Positions 8,133-33,956 of a stretch of 64,000 nt of DNA are shown in pieces. This DNA comes from Endomicrobium proavitum. GTDB lineage: Bacteria > Elusimicrobiota > Endomicrobiia > Endomicrobiales > Endomicrobiaceae. How positions within the stretch are numbered: position 1 is the first letter of the stretch; each line of letters opens with the position of its first letter. The notes under the pieces are model-generated. The model worked only from the letters and a program-made list of their open reading frames with translations, was not told the DNA's origin and did no database searches. The position numbers were made by a program, and so were the translations under genes. The stretch lies in the NCBI RefSeq assembly GCF_001027545.1, contig NZ_CP009498.1, forward strand, positions 558,001 to 622,000. Direction: 5' to 3'.

Positions 8133-9173
8133 ATGAAACTTACCGCATCCGAACTTGCAAAAATAGTTTCCGGAGATCTTGAAGGGAATGCAGCGGAAAT
8201 AATTACCGGAGCTAACGGATTGTCTGAAGCGCGCGCCGGAGAAGTGTCGTTTTTAGGAAATTTAAAATATACAGCCGACGCTTTAAACACAAAAGCAAGC
8301 GTTCTTTTTATTGCAAAAGATACGGATTCTTCGCAATTTAAAAATAAAACCGTTATAAAAGTTAAAAATCCGCAATACGCATTTTCCGTAGTTTTAACCA
8401 TTATAGATAAAGAAAGACTTGCCGTTATAGAACATAAAGTTTCTCCGTCGGCGCATATTTCGCAAAAAGCGGTTGTGGAAGAAAACGTTTACATAGGGCA
8501 CAACGTCGTTATTGAAGATGGGGCGTCTGTCGGAAGCGGAACAAAAATATTTCCTAACGTTTACATAGGAAGAAATGTCAAAATAGGAAAAGACTGCATA
8601 ATATATCCTAACGCGGTAATAAGAGAAAACTGTTCTCTGGGCGACAGAGTAATTTTGCAGCCGTCGGTAGTAATAGGCGGCGACGGTTTCGGTTTTGCCA
8701 CAATAGACGGCGTAAACAATAAAATTCCTCAGATAGGGCGCGTAGAAATAGGTTCGGACGTGGAAATAGGCGCTCACACCACAATAGACAGAGCTACCGT
8801 TGACGCAACAAGAATAGGCGACGGCACAAAAATAGACAATCTTGTTATGATAGCGCATAATGTTCAAATAGGTAAAAATTGTATTATAGTTGCAGAATCC
8901 GGAATAGCAGGCTCCACTCAATTGGGCAACAACGTAACTATCGGCGCGCAGGTTGGCATAGTAGGTCATATAAAAATAGGAAACAATGTAACCGTAACGG
9001 CTCAATCGGGAGTTACGGCAAATTTAGAAGACGGCGCTATCGTAGGCGGAAACCCGATAACAGATCTTCAAAACAGTATAAAAATAAGAGCCACGTTAAG
9101 GCATCTTCCTCAAATGTATCACGACATAAGAAAAATAAAAAAAGATTTGGAGACTACTAAACAAAATGGCTAA
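8133..9173 (+). CDS. lpxD: UDP-3-O-(3-hydroxyacyl)glucosamine N-acyltransferase LpxD
   Basis: Third step of lipid A synthesis: adds a 3-hydroxyacyl chain to the 2-amino group. It has the N-terminal uridine-binding domain (about 1-100), a left-handed beta-helix of hexapeptide repeats (about 105-310), and a C-terminal helix. The catalytic-His region 'MIAHNVQIG' is present. At 346 aa it matches the family. It starts right after the skp stop and overlaps lpxC-fabZ by 8 nt. Confidence 0.96.
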
Positions 9174-10503
9174 ACAAACTACCATAGCCGCAGAGGCTTA
9201 TGTAGAGGGAGTAGGCTTACATACCGGCAAAAAAAGTAAAGTTGTTTTTAAGTCGGCTCCGGCAAATTCCGGAATTAAATTTATACGCACGGATTTGTCC
9301 GGGAAACCTGAAATTCCGGCATTGTATTCAAACGCCCTGCTTAACATGGCTGTGCGCGGAAGCGTTATAGCAAAAGGCGAAGCAAGAGTAAGCACAATAG
9401 AACATATAATGTCGTCGTGCAACGCTTTGGGCATAGATAACCTTACCATAGAAATTGATAACGAAGAACCACCTATTCTTGACGGAAGCGCAAAAGTTTT
9501 TGCCGAAACTCTGGCAAAAGCCGGCGTAAAAGAACTTGACGCGCCCAAAGAGTATTACGTAATAACGGAACCCGTTATTTTTGAATCCGGAAAAACAAAA
9601 ATATCCGCATACCCGTCGGACAAACTTGAAATAGAATGCACTATAGGCTTTGACCATCCGTATTTAAAGCATCAGGAAATGAAAGTGTCCTGCGTAAATA
9701 AAGATTTTTATTTGAGCGATTTAGCTTCGGCAAAAACGTTTTGCTTTGATTATGAAATAGAAGCTCTCCAGAAAAACGGTCTTGCTTTGGGCGGCAACAT
9801 GGATAACGCCATAGTTATTTCCATAGACGGCATTCACAATCCGGAGCCTTTAAGATACGCCGACGAATTTGTTCGCCATAAAATTTTAGATTTAATCGGC
9901 GATTTATATCTTGCCGGAAAACCCATAAAAGCAAAAATTACGGCGGAAAAACCCGGACATTTAAACAACATAAATTTTGTAAAAGAGTTTGTTAAAAAAG
10001 CAACAATAAAAAAAGATAATACGGAGGACGTAATGGAAAGCCCTGCGCTTAAAGAAGGGGAAAAAATATTGACGCATGAAGAAGTTTTAAAAATTATACC
10101 TCACAGATATCCGTTTGTAATGATAGATAAAATAAAAATAAATAGCGCCGAGCCGAATAAAGCCGTGGGCTACAAATGCGTAAGCGGCAACGAAGGTTTT
10201 TTTCAGGGACATTTTCCGGGAGCTCCTATAATGCCCGGCGTTTTAATAGTTGAAGCAATGGCGCAGACTTCCTGCGTAATGTTTCTTTCAAAACCGACAA
10301 TGAAAAATTGTCTTGCATATTTTATGTCCATAGATAACGCAAAATTCAGAAAACCCGTAAAGCCCGGCGATTTACTTGAGCTTAGAGTAGAAACAATAAA
10401 AGACAGCGGAAGACGTGGCAAAGTAAAAGGTCAGGCTTTTGTTGACGGAAAACTTACCACCGAGGCTGAGTTTATGTTCATAATAGTTGATAAAGAGGCC
10501 TAA
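9166..10503 (+). CDS. lpxC-fabZ: Fused LpxC deacetylase and FabZ 3-hydroxyacyl-ACP dehydratase
   Basis: A bifunctional protein of 445 aa. Residues about 1-280 are LpxC, the zinc deacetylase and committed step of lipid A: 'GVGLHTG', '[16 protein letters not shown]' (zinc His and catalytic Glu), '[11 protein letters not shown]' (zinc His and Asp) and 'KPGHLNN' (catalytic His) are all present. Residues about 300-445 are FabZ: '[13 protein letters not shown]' and '[20 protein letters not shown]' carry its catalytic His and Glu. The fusion is known in Bacteroidota and some other diderms. It ties use of 3-hydroxyacyl-ACP in lipid A to its use in fatty acid elongation. Confidence 0.96.
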
Positions 10504-10507
10504 AAAC

Positions 10508-11278
10508 ATGATACACCAAACGGCAGTGATAGACAAAAGCGCTGTCATAGATAAGGATGTTGAAGTAGGTCCTTATACCGTGATAGGCCCCGAAACAATT
10601 ATTAAAACCGGAACAAAAATTCACGGGCAATGCGTAATAGAATATGCAGAAATCGGCGCAAACTGCGAAATATTTAATTTTTCTTCAATAGGCAAAAGAC
10701 CTCAGGATTTAAAATATAAAGGCGAAAAAACAAAAGTTGTAATAGGCGACGGCACAACTGTGCGCGAAGGCGTAACCGTAAACAGAGGCACCTCCGCCGC
10801 CGGACAAACAATCATCGGAAAAAACTGCCTTTTAATGGCAAGCGCGCACGTAGCGCACGATTGTATTTTGGGCAATAACGTAATTATAGGATATACCTCG
10901 GGAGTCGCCGGACATGTTGAAATAGGCGACGATGCAATTTTAAGCGGAAGCGTAGGCGTGCATCAGTTTTCTAAAATAGGAAAATCTGCAATGATAAGCG
11001 GCGGCGCAATGGTTGCAATGGACATAATTCCTTACTGCGTAGCGCAGGGCGACAGAGCCGTTTTAGCCGGTCTTAACGTAATAGGGCTTAAACGCAAACA
11101 GATGAAACTTTCGGAAATAGAAGATATAAAAAACGCTTACAGAGTTTTATTTATGTCTAAACTTCCGTTAAACGACGCGCTTGAAAAACTTGAAAGCATT
11201 GCGTCGCAATATGTTAAAGAAATAACTGATTTTATTAAATCCTCCCAGAGAGGAATTGCTCGTCCAAAGGAAAAGTAA
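10508..11278 (+). CDS. lpxA: UDP-N-acetylglucosamine acyltransferase LpxA, copy 1
   Basis: First step of lipid A synthesis, acylating the sugar 3-position. A left-handed beta-helix of hexapeptides (about 1-190) is followed by a helical C-terminal domain. The catalytic-His motif is in 'SAHVAHDC'. The start at 10508 (MIHQTAVIDKSAV) is preferred because it matches the family and lies just after the lpxC-fabZ stop. Copy 1 has YTSGVAGHV where E. coli LpxA and copy 2 have an Asn-Asn start to this strand, so the two copies may differ in substrate. Confidence 0.94.
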   Translation: MIHQTAVIDKSAVIDKDVEVGPYTVIGPETIIKTGTKIHGQCVIEYAEIGANCEIFNFSSIGKRPQDLKYKGEKTKVVIGDGTTVREGVTVNRGTSAAGQTIIGKNCLLMASAHVAHDCILGNNVIIGYTSGVAGHVEIGDDAILSGSVGVHQFSKIGKSAMISGGAMVAMDIIPYCVAQGDRAVLAGLNVIGLKRKQMKLSEIEDIKNAYRVLFMSKLPLNDALEKLESIASQYVKEITDFIKSSQRGIARPKEK

Positions 11279-11279
11279 A

Positions 11280-12044
11280 ATGATTCACGCTTCGGCAATA
11301 ATAGATAAAAGCGCCACAATAGAAGATAATGTTGAAATAGGCGCTTATTCGTGCATAGGCCCTAACGTAATTATAAAATCCGGAACCGTTATAGGAACAA
11401 ATGTTTACATAGAACATTGCGAAATCGGCTCCAATTGTAAAATTTTTCACGGCGCGTCCGTTGGAACGCCTCCGCAGGATTTGGGATATAAAAACGAGCC
11501 TTCAAAAGCTTATATCGGCGACGGCACAACGTTAAGAGAGTTTGTAACAATTAACAGAGGCAGCGCTAAAACAGGCAAAACCATTATCGGCAAAAACTGT
11601 TATTTTATGACTGCTTCCCACGCGGCGCACGACACAAGAATAGGCGACAACGTAATTATGGCAAATAATACTTCCGCCGCCGGGCACGTTGAAATAGGCG
11701 ACAATGCTTTTGTAAGCGGCAACGTGGGCATTCACCAGTTTTGCAGAATAGGCAAAGGTTCTATGACAGGCGTAGGCACTTCTGTAACCATGGACATAAT
11801 TCCTTACGCTTTATGCGCAGGCTACAGAGCGCAGCTAAACGGATTAAATCTTGTAGGAATGAAAAGACGCAAAATGACTGCAGATGAAATTAACGACGTA
11901 AAAGACGCTTATAAAACTCTTTTTGCGTCAAAACTTTTGCTAAACGACGCGCTTGCAAAACTTTCGCAAAGCGGTTCCGTTTACGTAAAAGAAATCGTTG
12001 AATTTATAAAAACCTCTAAAAGAGGAATAGCAAGACCGGAATAA
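11280..12044 (+). CDS. lpxA: LpxA paralogue, copy 2 (tandem)
   Basis: A second full-length LpxA-type acyltransferase (254 aa), 1 nt after the first. The hexapeptide helix, the 'ASHAAHDT' catalytic-His segment and the C-terminal helices are complete, so it is not a pseudogene. It keeps the 'NNTSAAGHV' and 'GIHQFCRIG' stretches typical of classical LpxA. Two LpxA genes next to a gnnA/gnnB-like pair suggest one enzyme may take the amino-sugar substrate UDP-GlcNAc3N or a different acyl chain. Which copy does what cannot be told from sequence alone. Confidence 0.93.
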   Translation: MIHASAIIDKSATIEDNVEIGAYSCIGPNVIIKSGTVIGTNVYIEHCEIGSNCKIFHGASVGTPPQDLGYKNEPSKAYIGDGTTLREFVTINRGSAKTGKTIIGKNCYFMTASHAAHDTRIGDNVIMANNTSAAGHVEIGDNAFVSGNVGIHQFCRIGKGSMTGVGTSVTMDIIPYALCAGYRAQLNGLNLVGMKRRKMTADEINDVKDAYKTLFASKLLLNDALAKLSQSGSVYVKEIVEFIKTSKRGIARPE

Positions 12045-16530: not shown

Positions 16531-16534
16531 ATTT

Positions 16535-18268
16535 ATGAAAAAGAAAACAAAAATAAAAAAACTGTATGAATATCTAAAACCGTATAAAGGCAGATTTATT
16601 GCCGCCTTAATTTTTATGATATTATACGCGTTTTTTGACTGGTTCGTTTTAACAAAGTTGAAAGATTTCATAAACGTTATATTTGAAAGAAGCGATTCCG
16701 TTCAAATGCTTTTGAAAATAGCACTTCTTATTCCGCTTATATTTGCTTTTACAAGCATTTGTGATTACGGACGTTCTTATCTGTTAAGTTACGTCGGCGA
16801 AAACGTAATAAAAGATTTAAGGCTTAAACTTCACAATAAACTTATGTCTTTATCCCACGATTTTTATGTGCGCAACTCTTCGGCAAAAATGATGTCAAGA
16901 GTTACAAACGATTTAAGCATTGTTTCAGGCGCAATCGTAGGCGTTCCGTCGTCGCTTGTAAAAGAGCTTCTTACATTTATATTTATGGCTGTTTATGTTT
17001 TTTATCTTAACTGGCAATTTTCTCTTCTTGTGCTTGTGGGGCTGCCGCTTGTGGCTGTGCCGCTTTACGTTTTTGGAAAAAGATTGAGAAAAGCTTCAAA
17101 AGCCGGACAGCAGCAAACGGCGGAAATATACTCTTCAATACACCAAATGCTAAACGGTTTTTCGGTTATTAAAGCGTTTAATACTGAAAAGCATGAAGTT
17201 GCGCGTTTCCAAAATGAAAACGATAAAGCTTACGGCATATCAATGGGCATAGTTAGGGTAGATGCGCGGCAGTCTCCTTTTGTAGAGTTTATAGGCGGGC
17301 TTGCCGGCGCGCTTCTTTTGCTTCTTGGCGGCAAAGACGTAATCTCGGGCGTGTGGTCTCCCGGCGCTTTTATGGTTTTTTTCTATGCGGTAACTAAAAT
17401 GTATAAACCTATCAAAAATCTTGCCGGAGTAAATTCGCAAATACAAAACGCAATATCGGCATCCGAAAGAGTATTTGAAGTTTTAGACGAAGTTCCGTCA
17501 ATTAAAGACGCGCCCGGCGCGGCAGAATTAAAACCTTTCCGCAACTCAATAATATATAAAGACGTAACTTTCGGCTACACTCTTGAAAAAGATACAATTA
17601 AAAACCTTAATGTTGAAATTAAATACGGACACACCGTTGCCTTTGTAGGTCATTCCGGCTCGGGCAAAACCACTCTTGCAAATCTTTTGCTCAGGTTTTA
17701 CGACCCTAAAAACGGAGAGATAATAATTGACGGTATAAATATTAAAAACGTAACGCTTGATTCCTTAAGAAAGCAGATAGGCATAGTAACGCAGGATGTT
17801 ACTCTTTTTGACAATACCGTTAAATACAATATATCTTACGGAAGTTTTAACGCGTCCATGGACGAAATTATCGCCGCCGCAAAAAATGCGAATGCGCACA
17901 GTTTTATATCAAAACTTCCAAACGGTTACGATACTTTAGTAGGCGAGCGCGGAGCAAAATTATCGGGCGGGGAAAAACAAAGAATTTCAATAGCCAGAGC
18001 AATGCTGAAAAACCCTCCTATTTTAGTTTTGGACGAAGCTACCAGCGCTCTTGATTCAACGTCCGAAAAATTGGTGCAGACAGCCATTGACGATTTAATG
18101 AAAAACAGAACCGTAGTTTTAATAGCCCACAGGCTTGCAACTGTCCGAAACGCAAATAAGATTGTTGTTATGGACGCGGGTAAAATAGTGGAATCCGGAA
18201 CTCACGAAGAGTTAATTAAGCTTGAAAACGGCGTATATAGAAAACTAAATCAGATGCAAAGTTTATAG
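16535..18268 (+). CDS. msbA: Lipid A export ABC transporter MsbA, copy 1
   Basis: A half-transporter of 577 aa that flips lipid A across the inner membrane. Six transmembrane helices (about residues 20-310) are followed by one ATPase domain with Walker A 'GHSGSGKTT', signature 'LSGGEKQR', Walker B 'ILVLDEATSALDS' and H-loop 'IAHRL'. The start at 16535 is chosen because the upstream in-frame start lies inside lpxB. It is complete, so it could work as a homodimer or pair with copy 2. Confidence 0.94.
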   Translation: MKKKTKIKKLYEYLKPYKGRFIAALIFMILYAFFDWFVLTKLKDFINVIFERSDSVQMLLKIALLIPLIFAFTSICDYGRSYLLSYVGENVIKDLRLKLHNKLMSLSHDFYVRNSSAKMMSRVTNDLSIVSGAIVGVPSSLVKELLTFIFMAVYVFYLNWQFSLLVLVGLPLVAVPLYVFGKRLRKASKAGQQQTAEIYSSIHQMLNGFSVIKAFNTEKHEVARFQNENDKAYGISMGIVRVDARQSPFVEFIGGLAGALLLLLGGKDVISGVWSPGAFMVFFYAVTKMYKPIKNLAGVNSQIQNAISASERVFEVLDEVPSIKDAPGAAELKPFRNSIIYKDVTFGYTLEKDTIKNLNVEIKYGHTVAFVGHSGSGKTTLANLLLRFYDPKNGEIIIDGINIKNVTLDSLRKQIGIVTQDVTLFDNTVKYNISYGSFNASMDEIIAAAKNANAHSFISKLPNGYDTLVGERGAKLSGGEKQRISIARAMLKNPPILVLDEATSALDSTSEKLVQTAIDDLMKNRTVVLIAHRLATVRNANKIVVMDAGKIVESGTHEELIKLENGVYRKLNQMQSL

Positions 18269-18276
18269 GAAATATT

Positions 18277-20013
18277 ATGGCTGAAAAGAAAAAAATAAAC
18301 TTTAAAAAATTATATTCATATCTTAAGCCTTATCTTCTAAGGCTTATAATAGCCGTTGTATTTATGAGCGCCTTCGCCGGCGTTACAATGTCTTTGCTTG
18401 CCGTTTTGGTAAAAGCTATAGACGGAATTTTTGTAAATAAAAATTCCACAATGCTTGTTTTTGCCGCAATTGCAGTGCCCGCAATTTTTGCGCTTAAGGG
18501 GTTATTTGATTACGGAAGAAGTTATCTTTTAAGTTATGTGGGGCAAAATGTAATCAGAAATTTAAGAATGGATATGTATAAAAAATTTATTTATCTTTCT
18601 CACGATTTTTACGTTCAAAACTCGTCTCCTAAAATGATGTCAAGAATTACAAACGACTTGGGCGCGCTTCAAAACGCAATAGTTACCATTCCCGTGGCTC
18701 TTATAAGAGACTCTCTTACCTTTATAGGTCTTCTGGCGGCTGCATTTTATTTGAATTGGAAATTTTCGCTTATAGCCTTTGTGGGCTTTCCTTTGGCGGC
18801 TTTTCCTTTGGTGTCTTTTGCAAGAAAAATGCGCAGACAATCAAAAGCCGGACAACAGCAAATAGCGGAAATTTATGCATCTCTTCACCAAATGCTTAAC
18901 GGGTTTTCTGTTATAAAAGCTTTCAACAGCGAACGGCACGAAGATGACAAATTTCAAAGCGACAATTTAAAATATTACGGAATAGCTTTGGGCTCGGCAA
19001 GAGTTTCTGCCCGCTCAAGCCCTACGATGAACTTCATAGGCGCCGTAGCGGTTTCCGTAATCTTATTTTTGGGCGGTAAAGACGTTATCAGCGGAGTTTG
19101 GACTGCCGGCGCGTTTATTGCCTTTGTGGCGGCTGTGGGGCAAATGTACGAGCCGGTAAAACGCTTTTCATCCGTAAATTCACAAATTCAGAGCGCAATA
19201 ACGGCTTATGAAAGGGTGTTTGAAATTATGGACGCGCAGCCTTCCATACAAGATGCGCCTAACGCCGTTGCTTTGCCTATATTCAGCAGTTTTATAGAAT
19301 ATAAAAATGTAGATTTCGGATATTTGCCTGATAAAAACGTAATTGAGAATTTTAACGTTAAAATAAATTTCGGCGAAACGGTGGCATTTGTAGGGCATTC
19401 CGGTTCCGGAAAAACCACTATCGCAAATTTGCTTTTAAGATTTTACGATCCTAATTCCGGCGAAGTATTTATAGACGGAAACAATATAAAAAAAGTTACA
19501 TTGGAATCGCTGCGTTCGCAAGTAGGAATAGTTTCGCAGGATGTTTTGCTTTTTGACGATACCGTTAAATACAATATATCTTACGGAAGTTTTGACGCGT
19601 CTATGGAAGATATAATACGCGCCGCAAAAAACGCAAATATTCACGATTTAATAACAAAACTCCCTCAAGGCTACGATACGCCCGTAGGCGAAAGGGGAAT
19701 GAAACTTTCCGGCGGAGAAAAGCAAAGAATTTCAATAGCGCGGGCAATGTTGAAAAACCCTCCTATTTTAGTTTTAGACGAAGCCACCAGCGCGCTTGAT
19801 TCCGAATCTGAAAAATTAGTTCAAACCGCCGTAGAAAACTTAATGAAAAACAGAACCGTAATTTTAATAGCTCACAGACTTTCAACAATAAAAAACGCGG
19901 ACAAAATTATAGTTATGGATTTGGGCAAAATAGCAGAGTTCGGAACGCACGAAGAGTTAATTAAAATTGAAAACGGCGCTTATAAAAAATTAACGCAAAC
20001 ACAAGTTTTGTAA
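18277..20013 (+). CDS. msbA: Lipid A export ABC transporter MsbA, copy 2 (tandem)
   Basis: A second full MsbA-type half-transporter (578 aa) 8 nt after the first, clearly a tandem duplicate (shared 'SRITNDL', 'LHQMLNGFSVIKAFN' and 'GGKDVISGVW' segments). All ATPase motifs are intact: Walker A 'GHSGSGKTT', 'LSGGEKQR', 'LDEATSALDS'. Stretches around Walker B are almost identical at the DNA level, while the membrane part has diverged more. Neither copy has a degenerate ATP site, which argues against the usual asymmetric heterodimer. Confidence 0.93.
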   Translation: MAEKKKINFKKLYSYLKPYLLRLIIAVVFMSAFAGVTMSLLAVLVKAIDGIFVNKNSTMLVFAAIAVPAIFALKGLFDYGRSYLLSYVGQNVIRNLRMDMYKKFIYLSHDFYVQNSSPKMMSRITNDLGALQNAIVTIPVALIRDSLTFIGLLAAAFYLNWKFSLIAFVGFPLAAFPLVSFARKMRRQSKAGQQQIAEIYASLHQMLNGFSVIKAFNSERHEDDKFQSDNLKYYGIALGSARVSARSSPTMNFIGAVAVSVILFLGGKDVISGVWTAGAFIAFVAAVGQMYEPVKRFSSVNSQIQSAITAYERVFEIMDAQPSIQDAPNAVALPIFSSFIEYKNVDFGYLPDKNVIENFNVKINFGETVAFVGHSGSGKTTIANLLLRFYDPNSGEVFIDGNNIKKVTLESLRSQVGIVSQDVLLFDDTVKYNISYGSFDASMEDIIRAAKNANIHDLITKLPQGYDTPVGERGMKLSGGEKQRISIARAMLKNPPILVLDEATSALDSESEKLVQTAVENLMKNRTVILIAHRLSTIKNADKIIVMDLGKIAEFGTHEELIKIENGAYKKLTQTQVL

Positions 20014-26717: not shown

Positions 26718-27734
26718 ATGCTCAAGAAACATTTTTTTAAAATACTTGCAGGCGTTATAATAAGCTCAGCGCTGATATATTTGACGTTTAGAAATATTGA
26801 TTTTACGGCAACGTTTGACACTATAAAAAAAGCAAACTGCGTTTTGCTGCTGCTTGCCGCCGCGTTATACGCTTTCACATATATTTTAAGAAGCATTCGT
26901 TACTACTTCATGATTTTACCCATTAAACAAACCCGCGTTTTTGAAAATCTTCCTTATACGATTTTAGGATTTTTTATGAATAATATTATCCCTCTGCGCA
27001 TAGGCGAACTTGTTCGCGCAAAAATTACCGGCGAGAGACTGAAAATTTCAAGAAGCTCAATTCTTGCCACAATTGTGGTAGAAAGACTTTTTGACATAAT
27101 TATATTTGTAGCGTCTTTCTTTGTAATAATGCTTGTTATGCCGTTTCCCGAAATAATAAAAAAATCTTTTTATGTTTGCGCCGTTGTTTTCGGAATAGGG
27201 CTTGTAATTCTTTTTTTAATAACAAAGCATGAAAAAAAAGCGTTACAGCTTGTTTCAAAACTTCCGTTGCCGCACAGAATAAAAAACCTTGTCAGCGAAC
27301 TTTTTGACAAGTTTACCGGCGGGCTTGCAACGCTTAAGAAACCGTCGGCTTTTTTAATTTCGTTTTTAATGTCCGCGCTGATTTGGCTTACCGAAAGCGC
27401 GGTTCTTGTCATAGCCGCGTATGCGTTCGGCATTAATTTGCCGCATGTTATTTTAGGCGGACTTTTTACCGTAATAATAATAGGAATAGGCGCCATAGTG
27501 CCTACCGCTCCCGGATATATCGGCGCATTTGAATATTTCGGAAGCAATCTTGCTCTTATACAAGGACTTTCCATAGAGGCGTCAAAAGCGGTGGCGTGTA
27601 TTTTAACGTATCATTTTATACAGATCGGCGTTATATTTATTTTGGGTTCGGCAAGCATAGTGAAAACTAAAATTTCTTTTAACGATTTGTTCAAGTTTGC
27701 AAAAATTGAGGATAATAAAAATGAAAAAGAATAA
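26718..27734 (+). CDS. YbhN/AglD-type flippase-like membrane protein (UPF0104)
   Basis: 338 aa with about eight transmembrane helices, the fold of the lysylphosphatidylglycerol synthase membrane domain. Conserved 'LRIGELVRAKI' and 'PTAPGYIGAFEYFG' segments are present. Relatives move or anchor lipid-linked glycans or phospholipids. It starts 1 nt after the peptidase gene and overlaps the GT2 gene, so it probably belongs to the glycan cluster. Confidence 0.85.
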   Translation: MLKKHFFKILAGVIISSALIYLTFRNIDFTATFDTIKKANCVLLLLAAALYAFTYILRSIRYYFMILPIKQTRVFENLPYTILGFFMNNIIPLRIGELVRAKITGERLKISRSSILATIVVERLFDIIIFVASFFVIMLVMPFPEIIKKSFYVCAVVFGIGLVILFLITKHEKKALQLVSKLPLPHRIKNLVSELFDKFTGGLATLKKPSAFLISFLMSALIWLTESAVLVIAAYAFGINLPHVILGGLFTVIIIGIGAIVPTAPGYIGAFEYFGSNLALIQGLSIEASKAVACILTYHFIQIGVIFILGSASIVKTKISFNDLFKFAKIEDNKNEKE

Positions 27735-28482
27735 AGTGATAATAGTTATGCCGGCATACAACGCGGCAAAAACTCTCAAAAAAACTTTAGACGATATTCC
27801 GAAAGGAAGTTACGACGAAATAATTCTTGTTGACGATTTATCAAAAGACGACACGGCGGAAGTTGCCAAAAATCTCGGACTTAAAGTTATATCGCACGAT
27901 GTCAACAAAGGCTACGGCGGAAACCAGAAAACTTGTTATAAAGCCGCATTGGAAGACGGAGCCGATATTGTAGTTATGCTTCACCCGGACTATCAATACG
28001 ACCCGCGCCTTGTTCCGTTTCTGGCAGGTCTTATAGCCGACGACGTTTGCGACATTATGATGGCAAACAGAATACGCACGCGCAAAGAAGCGCTAAAAGG
28101 CGGAATGCCGTTTTATAAATATTTTTTCAACAGATGTCTTACAATAACCGAAAATTTAGTTTTAGGATTAAACTTGGGAGAGTATCACACGGGTTACAGA
28201 GCATTTTCAAAAAAAGCGCTTGAAACTGTCCGTTTTGAACTTGATTCCGACGACTTTGTTTTTGACCAGCACATAATTGTTCAGGCGGCGGCATGCGGGC
28301 TTAGAATAGGCGATATTCCGGTTACCGCAAAGTATTTTAAAGAAGCGTCTTCAATAAATTTTATAAGAAGTTCTAAATACGGGCTTGAAACGCTTTTAAT
28401 TTTATTTAGATTTGCGCTTCATAAACTGCATATACTTCCTCAAAAAATATTTAAACCGAAAGCATCGGGAGATAAAATATGA
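27721..28482 (+). CDS. Family 2 glycosyltransferase (dolichyl/polyprenyl-phosphate sugar synthase-like)
   Basis: 253 aa. A GT-A nucleotide-sugar fold begins 'IIVMPAYNAAKTLKKTLDDIP', with 'ILVDDLSKDDT' and the 'MLHPDYQYDP' metal-binding region. No transmembrane segments follow, as in DPM1-type enzymes that load a sugar onto polyprenyl phosphate. The start at 27721 is preferred to 27697 because it matches the domain start. It overlaps both neighbours (14 and 4 nt). Confidence 0.88.
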   Translation: MKKNKVIIVMPAYNAAKTLKKTLDDIPKGSYDEIILVDDLSKDDTAEVAKNLGLKVISHDVNKGYGGNQKTCYKAALEDGADIVVMLHPDYQYDPRLVPFLAGLIADDVCDIMMANRIRTRKEALKGGMPFYKYFFNRCLTITENLVLGLNLGEYHTGYRAFSKKALETVRFELDSDDFVFDQHIIVQAAACGLRIGDIPVTAKYFKEASSINFIRSSKYGLETLLILFRFALHKLHILPQKIFKPKASGDKI

Positions 28483-29510
28483 GTTCTGAAATTCTTTATT
28501 TGACGGCATTTGTTACGGCATTAATTATTTCAATACTTGCAACGCCTTTATGCAGACTGCTTGCAAAAAAACTGAATGTGTTAGATAATCCGGTAACGGC
28601 AGTTAAAACGCACAAAATAAGCACGCCTTACCTTGGCGGCGTAGCTATAGCTTTAGGCTGGCTTGTTTCTTTGTTTGCGGTCAGATATTCAACAAGTTTT
28701 CCCGACGGAACTTTAAGAAGTTTGAGAGGAATTATCATCGGAGCGCTCGTCGTTTTATTTTTAGGGCTTATAGACGACGCGAAGTTTAAAGGTCTTGGGT
28801 TTAAATCAAAATTATTTATACAATTTGCGGCGGCATGCATTGTAGTTTTTGGTTTTGACATAAGAATAAATTTTATTTCAATTTATTGGCTTTCGTGTCT
28901 TGTAAGCATTTTTTGGATAGTGGGAATAACTAACGCTTTCAACATAATAGATATTATGGACGGGCTCTCAAGCGGAATTGCAACTATCGCCGCCCTCGCA
29001 TTTTTATTTATATCTCTTCCAACGGAACAAATATACGTAAATTTTTGCGCCATAGCTTTGGCGGGCGCATTGATTGGCTTTATGCCGTTTAATCTTTCAA
29101 AATCAAAAAAGATTTTCATGGGCGATACCGGAAGTCTTTTTATAGGTTTTATTCTTGCAAGTCTTGCCATGGGCACGGAATACACAAGCATCCACGAAAT
29201 AGGATTATTTGCGCCGTTATTTATTCTTGCGGTGCCTATTTATGAAACGTTTCTTGTCAGCTGGTTTAGAATCCGCAAAGGAAAACTGCCTTTTATGGGC
29301 AGCAAAGATCATTACGCTCTGCGTCTTGAAATGATGGGATTAAAAAGAAAAAATATTCTTCTTATAACTTACGCGGTTTGCATAGCGCTTGCCGTATGCG
29401 CATATTTTTTTACAAAACTCAGCGGCGTTTACGCGCTTATGCTTTTTCTGTTTATTTTTATATGTTTATGGGCGGCAAGCATTAAACTTGCGTCGGTTAA
29501 GGTGGAATAA
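28479..29510 (+). CDS. WecA/TagO-like polyprenyl-phosphate sugar-1-phosphate transferase
   Basis: An integral membrane GT4-type phosphotransferase (343 aa, about ten helices) that starts a lipid-linked glycan on undecaprenyl phosphate. Motifs: 'GLIDDAKFKGLGFKSK' (Asp-Asp), 'NAFNIIDIMDGLSSG', 'FMGDTGSLFIGF' and a C-terminal 'KDHYALRLEMMGL' (the HxxxR-type loop). It does not look like MraY, since it lacks that enzyme's muramoyl-pentapeptide signature. Likely the first committed enzyme of this surface-glycan cluster. Confidence 0.9.
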   Translation: MSSEILYLTAFVTALIISILATPLCRLLAKKLNVLDNPVTAVKTHKISTPYLGGVAIALGWLVSLFAVRYSTSFPDGTLRSLRGIIIGALVVLFLGLIDDAKFKGLGFKSKLFIQFAAACIVVFGFDIRINFISIYWLSCLVSIFWIVGITNAFNIIDIMDGLSSGIATIAALAFLFISLPTEQIYVNFCAIALAGALIGFMPFNLSKSKKIFMGDTGSLFIGFILASLAMGTEYTSIHEIGLFAPLFILAVPIYETFLVSWFRIRKGKLPFMGSKDHYALRLEMMGLKRKNILLITYAVCIALAVCAYFFTKLSGVYALMLFLFIFICLWAASIKLASVKVE

Positions 29511-30793
29511 TGCCAAAAACCGTTATTATAGGCGCCGGAATATCCGGTCTTACAGCGGCATATTTTTTAAAAAAGCCCTACGCGGTTTTGGAAGCAAAAC
29601 CTTACGCCGGCGGACTTTGCGCATCGTTTTACGAAGACGGATTTACTTTTGACTGCTCGGGGCATTTCATTCATATTAAAGACAAAAAAATAAAAAAACT
29701 CGTAGAAAAACTTACCGGCGGCACAGATGAAATAAAAAGAAACGCCGCGATATATTTAGACAAAACGTTTGTGCCGTATCCTTTTCAGGCAAACCTGTAT
29801 TATTTAAACAATAAAATAAAAAAAGAATGCGTTGACGGAATTTTAAAGAGAAAAGAAATCGCAATATCTACTTCAATGCCGTTTATAGATTGGAGCAAAG
29901 CAATGTTTGGCAGCGGCATAACAAAATACTTTATGCAACCATACAACCAAAAACTTTGGAGCTACGACTTAAAAAAAATGACTGCGGCATGGTCGGGACC
30001 TTTTGTGCCAAAACCTGACGCCAAAACAATAGTGGAATCGGCATATTCAAAAAACAAAGAGCATTACGGCTACAACAGCGTATTTTACTATCCGAAAAAC
30101 AAAGGCTGTCAGGCGCTAATTAACGGAATGCTAAAAAAAGTTAAGCCCGAATATAATTCTAAAACAACAAAGATTGATATAAAAAATAAAGTTGTCCATG
30201 CAGGCTGCAAACAATACAAATATAATAAAATTATCTCAACGCAGCCTCTTACGGAACTTATAAAACAAATTTCCAACGTGCCTGCAAACGTAAAAAAAGC
30301 GGCTGCAAAACTTGTATGCAACTCTGTAAGATGCGTAAATATCGGCGTGAAAGCCGCAACGGGAATCGCGAAAAATTTAAAAGGCGTTCACTGGCTGTAT
30401 CTTCCGGAATCAAAATTTCCTTTTTACAGAATCGGCGTATATTCAAACGTAAACGCAAAAACGGCTCCAAAAAACTCTTACGGTTTTTACGTGGAATTTT
30501 CAAGTTTAAACGGGAAATACAAAAGCAGCCGGAATGTGATAAAAGATTTAAAAAAAGCCGGTTTTATAGGAAACTCCGACGGGATAAGCGCAATAAATAT
30601 AGTAGATATGCCCTATGGTTATGTTATTTTTGACAAAAACCGCGAACGCGCCCTGCAGGTTATAAACAGCTTTTTAGTTAAACACAATATATTTTCCATA
30701 GGCCGCTACGGCGCGTGGGAATACTCTTTTATAGAAAAAAATATAAAAGACGCAAAAGAATTGGCAGAGAAGATAAACGCGGAGAGTTTGTAA
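29510..30793 (+). CDS. FAD-dependent amine-oxidase/UDP-galactopyranose-mutase-like oxidoreductase
   Basis: 427 aa. FAD-binding Rossmann motif 'VIIGAGISGLTAAYFLKKPY', then 'YAGGLCASFYEDGFTFDCSGHFIH', as in the protoporphyrinogen-oxidase-like proteins common in polysaccharide clusters. The C-terminal 'IFSIGRYGAWEYSFIEKNI' resembles the terminal flavin-binding block. Its place among glycosyltransferases suggests work on a nucleotide sugar or lipid-linked sugar. The reaction cannot be named from sequence. It overlaps the previous stop by 1 nt. Confidence 0.82.
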   Translation: MPKTVIIGAGISGLTAAYFLKKPYAVLEAKPYAGGLCASFYEDGFTFDCSGHFIHIKDKKIKKLVEKLTGGTDEIKRNAAIYLDKTFVPYPFQANLYYLNNKIKKECVDGILKRKEIAISTSMPFIDWSKAMFGSGITKYFMQPYNQKLWSYDLKKMTAAWSGPFVPKPDAKTIVESAYSKNKEHYGYNSVFYYPKNKGCQALINGMLKKVKPEYNSKTTKIDIKNKVVHAGCKQYKYNKIISTQPLTELIKQISNVPANVKKAAAKLVCNSVRCVNIGVKAATGIAKNLKGVHWLYLPESKFPFYRIGVYSNVNAKTAPKNSYGFYVEFSSLNGKYKSSRNVIKDLKKAGFIGNSDGISAINIVDMPYGYVIFDKNRERALQVINSFLVKHNIFSIGRYGAWEYSFIEKNIKDAKELAEKINAESL

Positions 30794-30796
30794 ACA

Positions 30797-32965
30797 ATGA
30801 TAAAAGTCTGCTACATAATAACCAAACTTGAGCTTGGCGGCGCGCAAAAAGTTGCGCTTTACACCGCTGAAAATTTAGAAAAAGACACCTTTGAAGATTT
30901 TCTTATAACAGGCTCAGGCGGTATTTTAGACGACGAGGCGGCAAAAAAGTTAAAAGTTTTTAAAGTGCCGAGTTTAGTAAGAGAAATATCTCCTATTAAA
31001 GATTTGCGCGCATTGCTTAAAATAAGAAAAATATTAAAAAAAGAAAAACCTGAATTAGTTCACACGCATTCTTCAAAAGCGGGAATTTTAGGAAGAATAG
31101 CAGCTAAACTTGCCGGCGTTAAAACAATCGTCCACACAATTCACGGGTATGGTTTTAACGAAACTCAAAAGTGGTATGTGAAATATCTATACATATATAT
31201 AGAAAAGTTTTGCACTTTATTTACCGACAAACTGATAGTTGTAGCTAAAGAAGATATGGATAAAGGGTTGCGCTACAAAATTGCAAAAGAAAATAAATTT
31301 ACCTTAATACGCGCCGGCATAGACACGCATTATTATAAAACTTTTAATCCAAACCCCGATTTTAGAAAAACTCTCGCCGATGAAAATACAAAAATAATAA
31401 CCACTATCGGACCGTTTAAACCTCAAAAAAATTTACAAGACTTTATTAAAGCCGCAGGCTTGGTATGCAAATCCGTCGACAATGTTAAATTTTTTATAGT
31501 CGGCGACGGAGATTTAAGACCGGAACTTGAAAAATTAATAGCAGATTTAAATTTAACAGATAAAATAATACTTCTCGGCTGGCGCACGGATATTGCCGAA
31601 ATTCTTTACGCAAGCGATGTGTTTGCCATGACGTCTCTCTGGGAAGGGCTGCCACGCACAATTTTAGAGGCTATGTGCTGCTCTAAACCGGTAGTTGCAA
31701 ATGCCGTTGACGGCGTGAAAGAAGTTATTCGCGAAGGCAAAAACGGTTTTAAAGTTAATCCTCACAATTATCAATATACCGCTGAAAAAATAATTTACCT
31801 TCTGCAAAACCCGACTGTTGTAAACGCTATGGGAAAATCAGCAAAACATTCTATTACAAAAGAATACGATATTAATCATATGGTTAAACAGCATGAAGAT
31901 TTATACCGCAAACTTCTTCAGCACTATCTTATGGTGTGCGAACTTATTGACGAGAAGGCGCAAAAAAAACATAAAAGAAAGAAAAGAATTGTTATTACTG
32001 TTTGCGCAGCCGCTTTAATAGCCGCTTTTTACACATATACGCCATACCCCGTTGCGTATTTTTTAAGAGGGGCGTTTCACATTACAGATTATAAACTTCC
32101 CGCAGATTACGCCAACCTTAAAAAGAATGTAATTTTTTACAGAGATATAGATTATAAATCAAACTTCCCAAACGGAAATCTTGATATAATTGCTCCGAAA
32201 AGCGACCCCAACGGAAAAACAATTTTTTGGGTTCACGGCGGAGGATACGTAGGCGACGATAATAAAAAAATTGAACATTACATGGTGCAACTTGCAAACA
32301 GCAGTTTTACGGTTATAAGCATCAACTACGCTTTTGCTCCGGAACACGCCTTTCCGGTTCAGTTAAAACAAATTGAGCAAGCTTACTGTTTTATAAAAGA
32401 AAATGCGGCTAAATACGGAATTAACACGGATAAAATGTATTTCGGCGGGGATTCCGCCGGCGCGCAGCTTGTGGCGCAGTTTATCAATATACAAACTAAT
32501 CCGATATACGCAGATATGTTAAATGAATATTTGGAAAATATTAAATTAAATGCCGTCGTTGACGTAAACACTCTGCACGGAGCAATTCTTTTTTGCGGCC
32601 CTTACGATCTTAAAGATTTAATAGATCCTCCCAAGGGAACGCTTGCTCTTCCGTTTAAGCAAATCGGCAAAGCGTATTTCGGCACCACCGACGAAAATAA
32701 TGTTTACGTTATTTTAAGCAACGTTACAACAAGACTTTCTAAACATTTTCCGCCGGTGTTTATTACCGACGGAAACACAAGCTCTTTTGAATATCAAGCA
32801 AAAAAACTTGAAGATGCGTTAAAACAGAAAGGCGTTTACGTGCAAGGTGTTTTCTATCCAAAAACCGATGAAGAACTAAAACACGAATATCAATTTGAAA
32901 TAACTACAAAATACGCCCAAAATACTTATAACTATCTTATTGAATTTTTAAACAGAAAAAAATAA
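30797..32965 (+). CDS. Fusion of a GT4 glycosyltransferase with a membrane-anchored alpha/beta-hydrolase (esterase)
   Basis: A 722-aa two-part protein. Residues about 1-375 are a GT-B family 4 glycosyltransferase ('ITKLELGGAQKVALY', 'EGLPRTILEAMCCSKPVVA' with the ExxxxxxxE motif). A basic stretch (KKHKRKKR) and one membrane helix (about 396-412) follow. Residues about 425-722 are an HSL/Aes-like esterase: oxyanion 'HGGGYVGDD', nucleophile 'GGDSAGAQL', Asp in 'FITDGNTSS', His in 'KHEYQF'. By the positive-inside rule the transferase is cytoplasmic and the esterase periplasmic. The esterase half is a duplicate of the next gene. Confidence 0.88.
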   Translation: MIKVCYIITKLELGGAQKVALYTAENLEKDTFEDFLITGSGGILDDEAAKKLKVFKVPSLVREISPIKDLRALLKIRKILKKEKPELVHTHSSKAGILGRIAAKLAGVKTIVHTIHGYGFNETQKWYVKYLYIYIEKFCTLFTDKLIVVAKEDMDKGLRYKIAKENKFTLIRAGIDTHYYKTFNPNPDFRKTLADENTKIITTIGPFKPQKNLQDFIKAAGLVCKSVDNVKFFIVGDGDLRPELEKLIADLNLTDKIILLGWRTDIAEILYASDVFAMTSLWEGLPRTILEAMCCSKPVVANAVDGVKEVIREGKNGFKVNPHNYQYTAEKIIYLLQNPTVVNAMGKSAKHSITKEYDINHMVKQHEDLYRKLLQHYLMVCELIDEKAQKKHKRKKRIVITVCAAALIAAFYTYTPYPVAYFLRGAFHITDYKLPADYANLKKNVIFYRDIDYKSNFPNGNLDIIAPKSDPNGKTIFWVHGGGYVGDDNKKIEHYMVQLANSSFTVISINYAFAPEHAFPVQLKQIEQAYCFIKENAAKYGINTDKMYFGGDSAGAQLVAQFINIQTNPIYADMLNEYLENIKLNAVVDVNTLHGAILFCGPYDLKDLIDPPKGTLALPFKQIGKAYFGTTDENNVYVILSNVTTRLSKHFPPVFITDGNTSSFEYQAKKLEDALKQKGVYVQGVFYPKTDEELKHEYQFEITTKYAQNTYNYLIEFLNRKK

Positions 32966-32966
32966 T

Positions 32967-33956
32967 ATGAAAAAAATACTTGTAATTATCTCAGCCCTTA
33001 TAGTTTTTGCCGCCGGATTTTATTTTTTCACGCCGTATCCAGCGGTATGGCTTGTTAAGCATGCTTTCAGTTTAACAAAATACACTCCGCCCGAAAATTA
33101 TTCAGAAATTAAAAGCAACGTTATATTCCACAGAAATATAAATTACAACTCGGCGTATCCTAACGGAAAGCTTGATATTATACAGCCTAAAAACGGCAAG
33201 AATGATAAAGTTATCTTGTGGGTGCACGGCGGGGGATACGTAGGCGATGATAAAAAGAAAATAGAACATTATATGGCAATGCTTGCAAACAGCGGTTTTA
33301 CCGTCGTAAGCATAAATTACGCGCTTGCTCCGAAAGATCACTACCCTGTTCAGCTCAAACAAATTGAAGAAGCTTATAATTTTATAAAAGAAAACGCCGC
33401 AACATACGATTTTAACGTAAATAAAATATACTTCGGCGGAGATTCCGCCGGCGCGCAGCTTGTGGCGCAGTTTATTAATATAGAAACAAATCCGGATTAC
33501 GGCGCAAAAATAAACAGTAATATAAAAAATATGCAAATCAACGCCGTAGTAAATAGAAAAACTATTATGGGCGTAATACTTTTTTGCGGTCCTTACAATT
33601 TAAGAGAATTTTTAAACCCGCCGCCTGACGCCATGAAGCTTCCATACAAACAAATCGGCTGGGCGTATTTCGGCACAAAAAATGTTAACGATATAAACGT
33701 AAAGCTCAGCAACATTACAAATAAGCTTTCTTCAAATTATCCGCCGGTATTTATTACCGACGGAAACACAAATTCTTTTGAAGCGCAGGCAAAAAAACTT
33801 GAAGCGGCGTTAAAAGAAAACGGAATCTATGTAAGAGGCATATATTATCCCAAAAGCGACGCAATATTAGAGCACGAATATCAGTTTTATATGAACACCG
33901 AATACGCTAAAAACACATATAAACAATTACTGCAGTTTTTAAATCGTAAAAAATAA
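32967..33956 (+). CDS. Membrane-anchored alpha/beta-hydrolase (esterase), paralogue of the fused domain upstream
   Basis: 329 aa: an N-terminal anchor (about 4-20), then the esterase with 'HGGGYVGDD', 'GGDSAGAQL', 'FITDGNTNS' and 'EHEYQF', so the triad is complete. It aligns end to end with the C-terminal half of the preceding gene, including the 'FTPYPA' start and 'LQFLNRKK' end. DNA around the nucleophile (near 33430-33480 and 32440-32490) is nearly identical, which suggests recent duplication or gene conversion. It may remove acyl groups from a cell-surface glycan; the substrate is unknown. Confidence 0.87.
   Translation: MKKILVIISALIVFAAGFYFFTPYPAVWLVKHAFSLTKYTPPENYSEIKSNVIFHRNINYNSAYPNGKLDIIQPKNGKNDKVILWVHGGGYVGDDKKKIEHYMAMLANSGFTVVSINYALAPKDHYPVQLKQIEEAYNFIKENAATYDFNVNKIYFGGDSAGAQLVAQFINIETNPDYGAKINSNIKNMQINAVVNRKTIMGVILFCGPYNLREFLNPPPDAMKLPYKQIGWAYFGTKNVNDINVKLSNITNKLSSNYPPVFITDGNTNSFEAQAKKLEAALKENGIYVRGIYYPKSDAILEHEYQFYMNTEYAKNTYKQLLQFLNRKK

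Follow-up and report, generated by a model that had tools for sequence, protein, structure and literature searches.

A GT4 glycosyltransferase and an esterase share one uninterrupted reading frame in the genome of Endomicrobium proavitum Rsa215, and an unfused twin of the esterase follows directly. We examined these genes in a window of 64,000 nucleotides (positions 558001-622000 of a single contig of 1,588,979 bases) from this organism, a free-living member of the Elusimicrobia from the termite gut (PMC4505116). The fused frame (30797-32965) translates into 722 amino acids with zero internal stops, and the start codon of the twin, a frame of 329 amino acids, is located one base past the stop of the fusion. 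Both frames are as an earlier note on this DNA had described them, and the Pfam domains of both halves are recognizable in the fusion. Taken as a whole, the observations are best explained, with a probability that we place at roughly 0.6, by a duplication of the esterase, the merger of one copy with the transferase into a bitopic protein, and the manner of working proposed below. We view the result as a modest fusion beside a tandem duplicate, composed of ordinary enzyme families, and not as a new kind of system.

The locus and its enzymes

Table 1. Features of the fusion locus, in window positions.
Feature	Positions	Strand	Basis
Flippase-like membrane protein of the cluster	26718..27734	+	PF03706/TIGR00374
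GT2 glycosyltransferase of the cluster	27721..28482	+	Pfam
WecA-like polyprenyl-phosphate sugar-1-phosphate transferase	28479..29510	+	Pfam PF00953; TIGR02380 score below cut-off
Glycan-cluster oxidoreductase, FAD/NAD-binding; conserved in relatives, where it also precedes the transferase	29510..30793	+	
GT4 glycosyltransferase half of the fusion, PglA-like, aa 1-375	30797..31921	+	Pfam; PDB sequence search; stand-alone relatives
Junction linker, aa 376-397, with basic KKHKRKKR and an A8 run at 31962-31969	31922..31987	+	
Single predicted membrane helix, aa 398-416	31988..32044	+	Hydropathy; structure model
HSL/BD-FAE alpha/beta-hydrolase, the fused esterase half	32045..32962	+	Pfam; alignment; model; Foldseek
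Separate twin esterase, anchored in the membrane at its N-terminus	32967..33956	+	Pfam; alignment; hydropathy

The N-terminal half of the fusion matches Glyco_transf_4 (aa 14-178, E 3.6e-19) and Glycos_transf_1 (aa 188-351, E 5.6e-40) in Pfam, and the E-x7-E motif of the GT4 C-terminal domain can be read from the translation as EGLPRTILE. A PDB sequence search returned PglA as the nearest solved relative (PDB 8dvw, E 9.5e-29, over aa 33-374). Stand-alone enzymes from within the genus share about 71% identity with this half, and their ends fall within approximately 10 residues of aa 375. The transferase reaches no specific NCBIfam cut-off; the best model, TIGR03088, scored 181 bits vs. 409, and the Pgl models were far below as well. 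No homologues of the glycosyltransferase were found on viral contigs. Given PglA as the nearest solved relative and the WecA-like, GT2, flippase-like, and FAD-oxidoreductase genes upstream (Table 1), the locus is likely a surface-glycan gene cluster whose product is a polyprenol-linked glycan, with the WecA-like enzyme probably catalyzing the first step.

The C-terminal half matches BD-FAE (PF20434, aa 462-661) and Abhydrolase_3 (aa 476-689), and the twin matches the same two families. Alignment places the HGGGYVGD oxyanion loop, the GDSAG elbow, and the HEYQF motif in both copies. In the fused copy, the corresponding residues are Ser553 (32453-32455) and His696 (32882-32884), with Asp658 (32768-32770) as the candidate acid; in the twin, they are Ser160 and His303, with Asp265 (33759-33761) as the candidate. 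The canonical catalytic aspartate of the DPL motif is absent, its position being occupied by NSF or SSF, and the aspartate of an ITDGN motif is conserved across the anchored subfamily, which suggests a shifted catalytic acid in these proteins. An AlphaFold model of the whole fusion was confident for the esterase half (pLDDT mostly 85–97) but too poor for the transferase half to confirm a GT-B fold there. Foldseek matched the esterase model to esterases in the PDB, including esterase B, Aes, and a gut carbohydrate esterase.

Paralogy and selection

The proposal in the earlier note that the esterase half and the next gene are paralogues is borne out: they are 60% identical in amino acids and 68.5% identical in nucleotides over the aligned codons. 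That note had also called their nucleophile regions almost identical at the DNA level. An exact match of 35 nt, the longest between the two, does indeed lie at the nucleophile elbow, but there is nothing special about it: identical synonymous codons run for at most 11 in a row, a length that 22.5% of shuffles also reached. Conservation and codon usage suffice to account for the identity of this region, and by the same comparison we reject recent gene conversion at the nucleophile. Synonymous sites elsewhere in the alignment also fall short of full saturation: 118 of 196 are identical, compared with 87 expected from codon usage alone.

Are both copies still functional? The pairwise dN (0.285) is well below the dS (1.40), and the catalytic residues are kept; on these grounds, both esterases look selected. 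The fused copy is the faster-evolving of the two, having accumulated 27 amino-acid changes to the twin’s 12 (with the proteins of relatives G017 and G015 as the reference) on a branch of length 0.50 vs. 0.21, and it retains Ser553, His696, and the oxyanion residues. Because 331 codons that have diverged to this degree are free of stops, we argue that the fused esterase half is translated.

Other envelope genes in the window are duplicated or fused. A tandem lpxA pair (10514-11275 and 11280-12041) has both members above the LpxA cut-off and is 57% identical, a divergence like that of the tandem esterases, and two MsbA-like ABC transporters (16532-18265 and 18277-20010) are 64% identical. Counting the esterases, these 64 kb thus hold three tandem pairs of envelope genes at 57–64% identity. 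The frame at 9166-10500 encodes a bifunctional LpxC-FabZ fusion, which scores 475.7 bits with the known NCBIfam equivalog NF009667 (cut-off 465).

Gene order in relatives

The esterase is present in 6 of 77 genomes of the family, and of 60 relatives, 56 match the transferase, most of them without any esterase. In G001, a member of the same genus, the oxidoreductase is followed by the transferase, the esterase, and miaB; G017, from another genus of the family, has the first three genes in this order, and its contig ends there. In both genomes, the pair occupies the syntenic position of the fusion. The stop of the transferase and the start of the esterase overlap by four bases (ATGA), which puts the esterase in a different frame, and the two genes are probably translationally coupled. 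Two further genomes of the genus (G002 and G003) have the transferase and no esterase, and the esterase copies of G004, G015, and G023 adjoin other genes. The G023 copy (L006:1-588) begins with a lipoprotein-like stretch, MRKLSLMCMFVFLAGCMNN, which replaces the membrane anchor, and it adjoins a glycoside-hydrolase-like gene. Two complete copies of the esterase were found in no relative searched.

A search of relatives for the same fusion, which the earlier note had proposed, returned none: the fused form was absent from the 77 family genomes, from the esterase-family matches listed from 295 genomes of the phylum, and from 75 further loci of a genome-collection scan. Among the results of the searches with the esterase and with the transferase, seven long frames were sampled, and Pfam identified them as carboxylesterase, S9-peptidase, glucuronyl-esterase, methyltransferase-GT4, and GT4-GT9 proteins; none was the fusion. 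A literature search for transferase-esterase fusions yielded nothing relevant. With separate genes in the relatives and no fused form in the genomes searched, the fusion is derived and apparently private to E. proavitum. The note had reasoned that separate proteins in closely related strains would point to a recent accident. The proteins are separate in the relatives, but those are different species (transferases about 71% identical), which indicates a derived fusion and not an accident at the level of the strain.

The junction and membrane topology

The top hydrophobic stretch of the fusion, IVITVCAAALIAAFYTYTP (aa 398-416), comes directly after KKHKRKKR. Its peak hydropathy of 1.77 is lower than that of the twin’s anchor (2.49), and the predicted structure has a helix at aa 393-414. 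One hydrophobic helix with positive charges on its N-terminal side is the pattern of a bitopic N-in/C-out protein, a topology that is plausible for the fusion. The basic residues before the helix, together with the lipoprotein-like N-terminus of the G023 relative, would place the esterase outside the cytoplasm. The arrangement proposed in the earlier note, with the transferase in the cytoplasm and the esterase in the periplasm, is thus likely.

Just upstream of the helix, His392 (CAT, 31970-31972) aligns with the start methionine of the unfused copies, in all four of those that have an N-terminus. In the segment 31961-31978, CAAAAAAAACATAA, a stop is reached immediately if the frame shifts by -1 or one A is added, and an unfused transferase could possibly arise there by slippage. 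This signal may mean nothing, as A8 runs are common in genes of E. proavitum.

Validity of the fused frame and origin of the fusion

Because the fusion is seen in one genome only, and because transferase and esterase are separate in the relatives, it could be asked whether an error in calling one or several bases of the junction has joined what are truly a transferase and two esterases in separate, overlapping genes. PacBio is an indel-prone technology. The genome was sequenced with PacBio RS alone, at >20x, in a report that leaves short-read polishing unmentioned (PMC4505116), and the A8 run lies within the junction. The earlier note had itself named a sequencing error at about 31920-31980 as a possible refutation. 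We considered single-base changes in this region. Not one of 704 such changes both terminated the transferase and gave the esterase an ATG where its ancestral start lay, so one missed or wrong base does not restore the arrangement of the relatives. Other two-gene layouts are within reach: if the assembly lacks one base, any of 128 single insertions would bring the transferase to a stop near an ATG at 31931. That ATG, however, is without a Shine-Dalgarno sequence. Moreover, long frames of the window remain unbroken across 21 other A/T runs of 8–9 bases, a count that is partly circular, as a broken frame would not be counted as long. On balance, we deem an artefact, although it is the main rival reading, unlikely. 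Slightly less likely still is a real frame from which the esterase is also, or mainly, made from an internal start, or the transferase alone by slippage at the A8 run, such that fused and unfused forms coexist. ATG 31931 and GTG 31934 are in frame with the esterase half, and the shift described above would give a transferase of 392 aa; against this stand the same missing Shine-Dalgarno sequence and the abundance of A8 runs in the window’s genes, which means that the run alone says little.

If the fused frame is real, where did its esterase half come from? Tandem duplication of the esterase, with one copy, the upstream one, becoming joined to the transferase, as the earlier note had suggested, is favoured but not proven. 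In the best trees, the fused half and the twin are sisters with moderate support (88/84 with 17 rows, 84/86 with 11 rows), and, as noted above, no relative searched has two complete copies. The AU test does not reject (p=0.10) a tree in which the twin joins the G017 and G004 proteins apart from the fused half. Under that tree, the esterases would not be species-specific duplicates: the twin would be the orthologue of the G017 and G004 genes, and the fused half, consistent with its longer branch, would be older or separately acquired. We consider this history somewhat unlikely. Because the G001 copy falls outside in the trees, some loss, transfer, or rate effect in the history of the esterase is likely.

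With duplication and fusion preferred, the most likely course of events is as follows. The ancestral state would have been a GT4 transferase and a membrane-anchored esterase in separate genes with an ATGA overlap, as the relatives have them. The esterase would then have been duplicated in tandem in E. proavitum, and the upstream copy, its start lost (now His392), would have moved into the frame of the transferase to give one bitopic inner-membrane protein. A merger from an ATGA overlap requires the loss of a stop, the loss of a start, and a net change of frame; the extra linker residues 376-391 are its visible trace.

Proposed function

We propose that the GT4 half, at the cytoplasmic face, would add a sugar to an undecaprenyl-diphosphate-linked glycan begun by the WecA-like enzyme. 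The helix would carry the esterase to the periplasm, where it would hydrolyze O-acyl esters, possibly those of the glycan after export; the twin would be an ordinary anchored copy of similar activity. The only gene for an acyltransferase-3 protein (PF01757), approximately 500 kb away, and one Wzy_C gene are found elsewhere in the genome, making O-acylated glycans possible but not tying them to this locus; no MBOAT gene was found in the genome.

The earlier note had gone further, surmising that the fusion couples sugar addition inside with deacylation outside. Such coupling is hypothetical and unsupported by conservation, since the transferase occurs mostly without the esterase, the esterase occurs elsewhere without an adjoining transferase, and the fusion occurs nowhere else searched. 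A single chain that links cytoplasmic sugar addition to periplasmic de-esterification of the same glycan, with the fused esterase serving the flipped product and the twin acting generally, is in our estimation a long shot, and we see no grounds for supposing that a substrate is channelled across the membrane. In the conservative reading, the fusion would mainly co-express and tether the two enzymes. If confirmed, it would be a clear gene fusion arising at a four-base ATGA overlap, with earlier states persisting in relatives (coupled but separate genes, or the transferase alone), and it would unite activities for building and trimming a surface glycan on opposite membrane faces in one chain.

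Comparison with known systems

The transferase half resembles PglA-type GT4 enzymes, which act on undecaprenyl-diphosphate-linked sugars (PDB 8dvw, 8dqd), in its sequence and in its clustering with a WecA-like enzyme. PglA, however, is a stand-alone transferase, and the present half, besides being fused to an esterase, attains no NCBIfam equivalog cut-off. The two esterases share the HGGG loop, the GDSAG elbow, the catalytic histidine, and the fold with HSL-family/BD-FAE carboxylesterases (Aes, Lactobacillus rhamnosus esterase B, and 6tkx, the carbohydrate esterase from the gut); they differ in the N-terminal membrane anchor, in having ITDGN for the DPL acid, and in the fusion of one copy to a transferase. 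Paenibacillus, Thermoactinomycetaceae, and Enterococcus have membrane-anchored esterases that stand alone (L043-L046, L050, L062) and show the same layout of anchor, SPxP juxtamembrane stretch, and hydrolase domain at 32–43% identity. None of these is fused, and the genes around them are unrelated; no shared function was found among the neighbours of these Firmicutes homologues.

Fusions of GT4 enzymes recur in the Elusimicrobiota (L138:3-2033, L139:1517-3499, L140:824-3088). These GT4-methyltransferase and GT4-GT9 proteins likewise join a glycan-cluster GT4 to a second enzyme in one chain. Both partners in those proteins are expected to be cytoplasmic, whereas the partner in the E. proavitum fusion is predicted to lie across the membrane.
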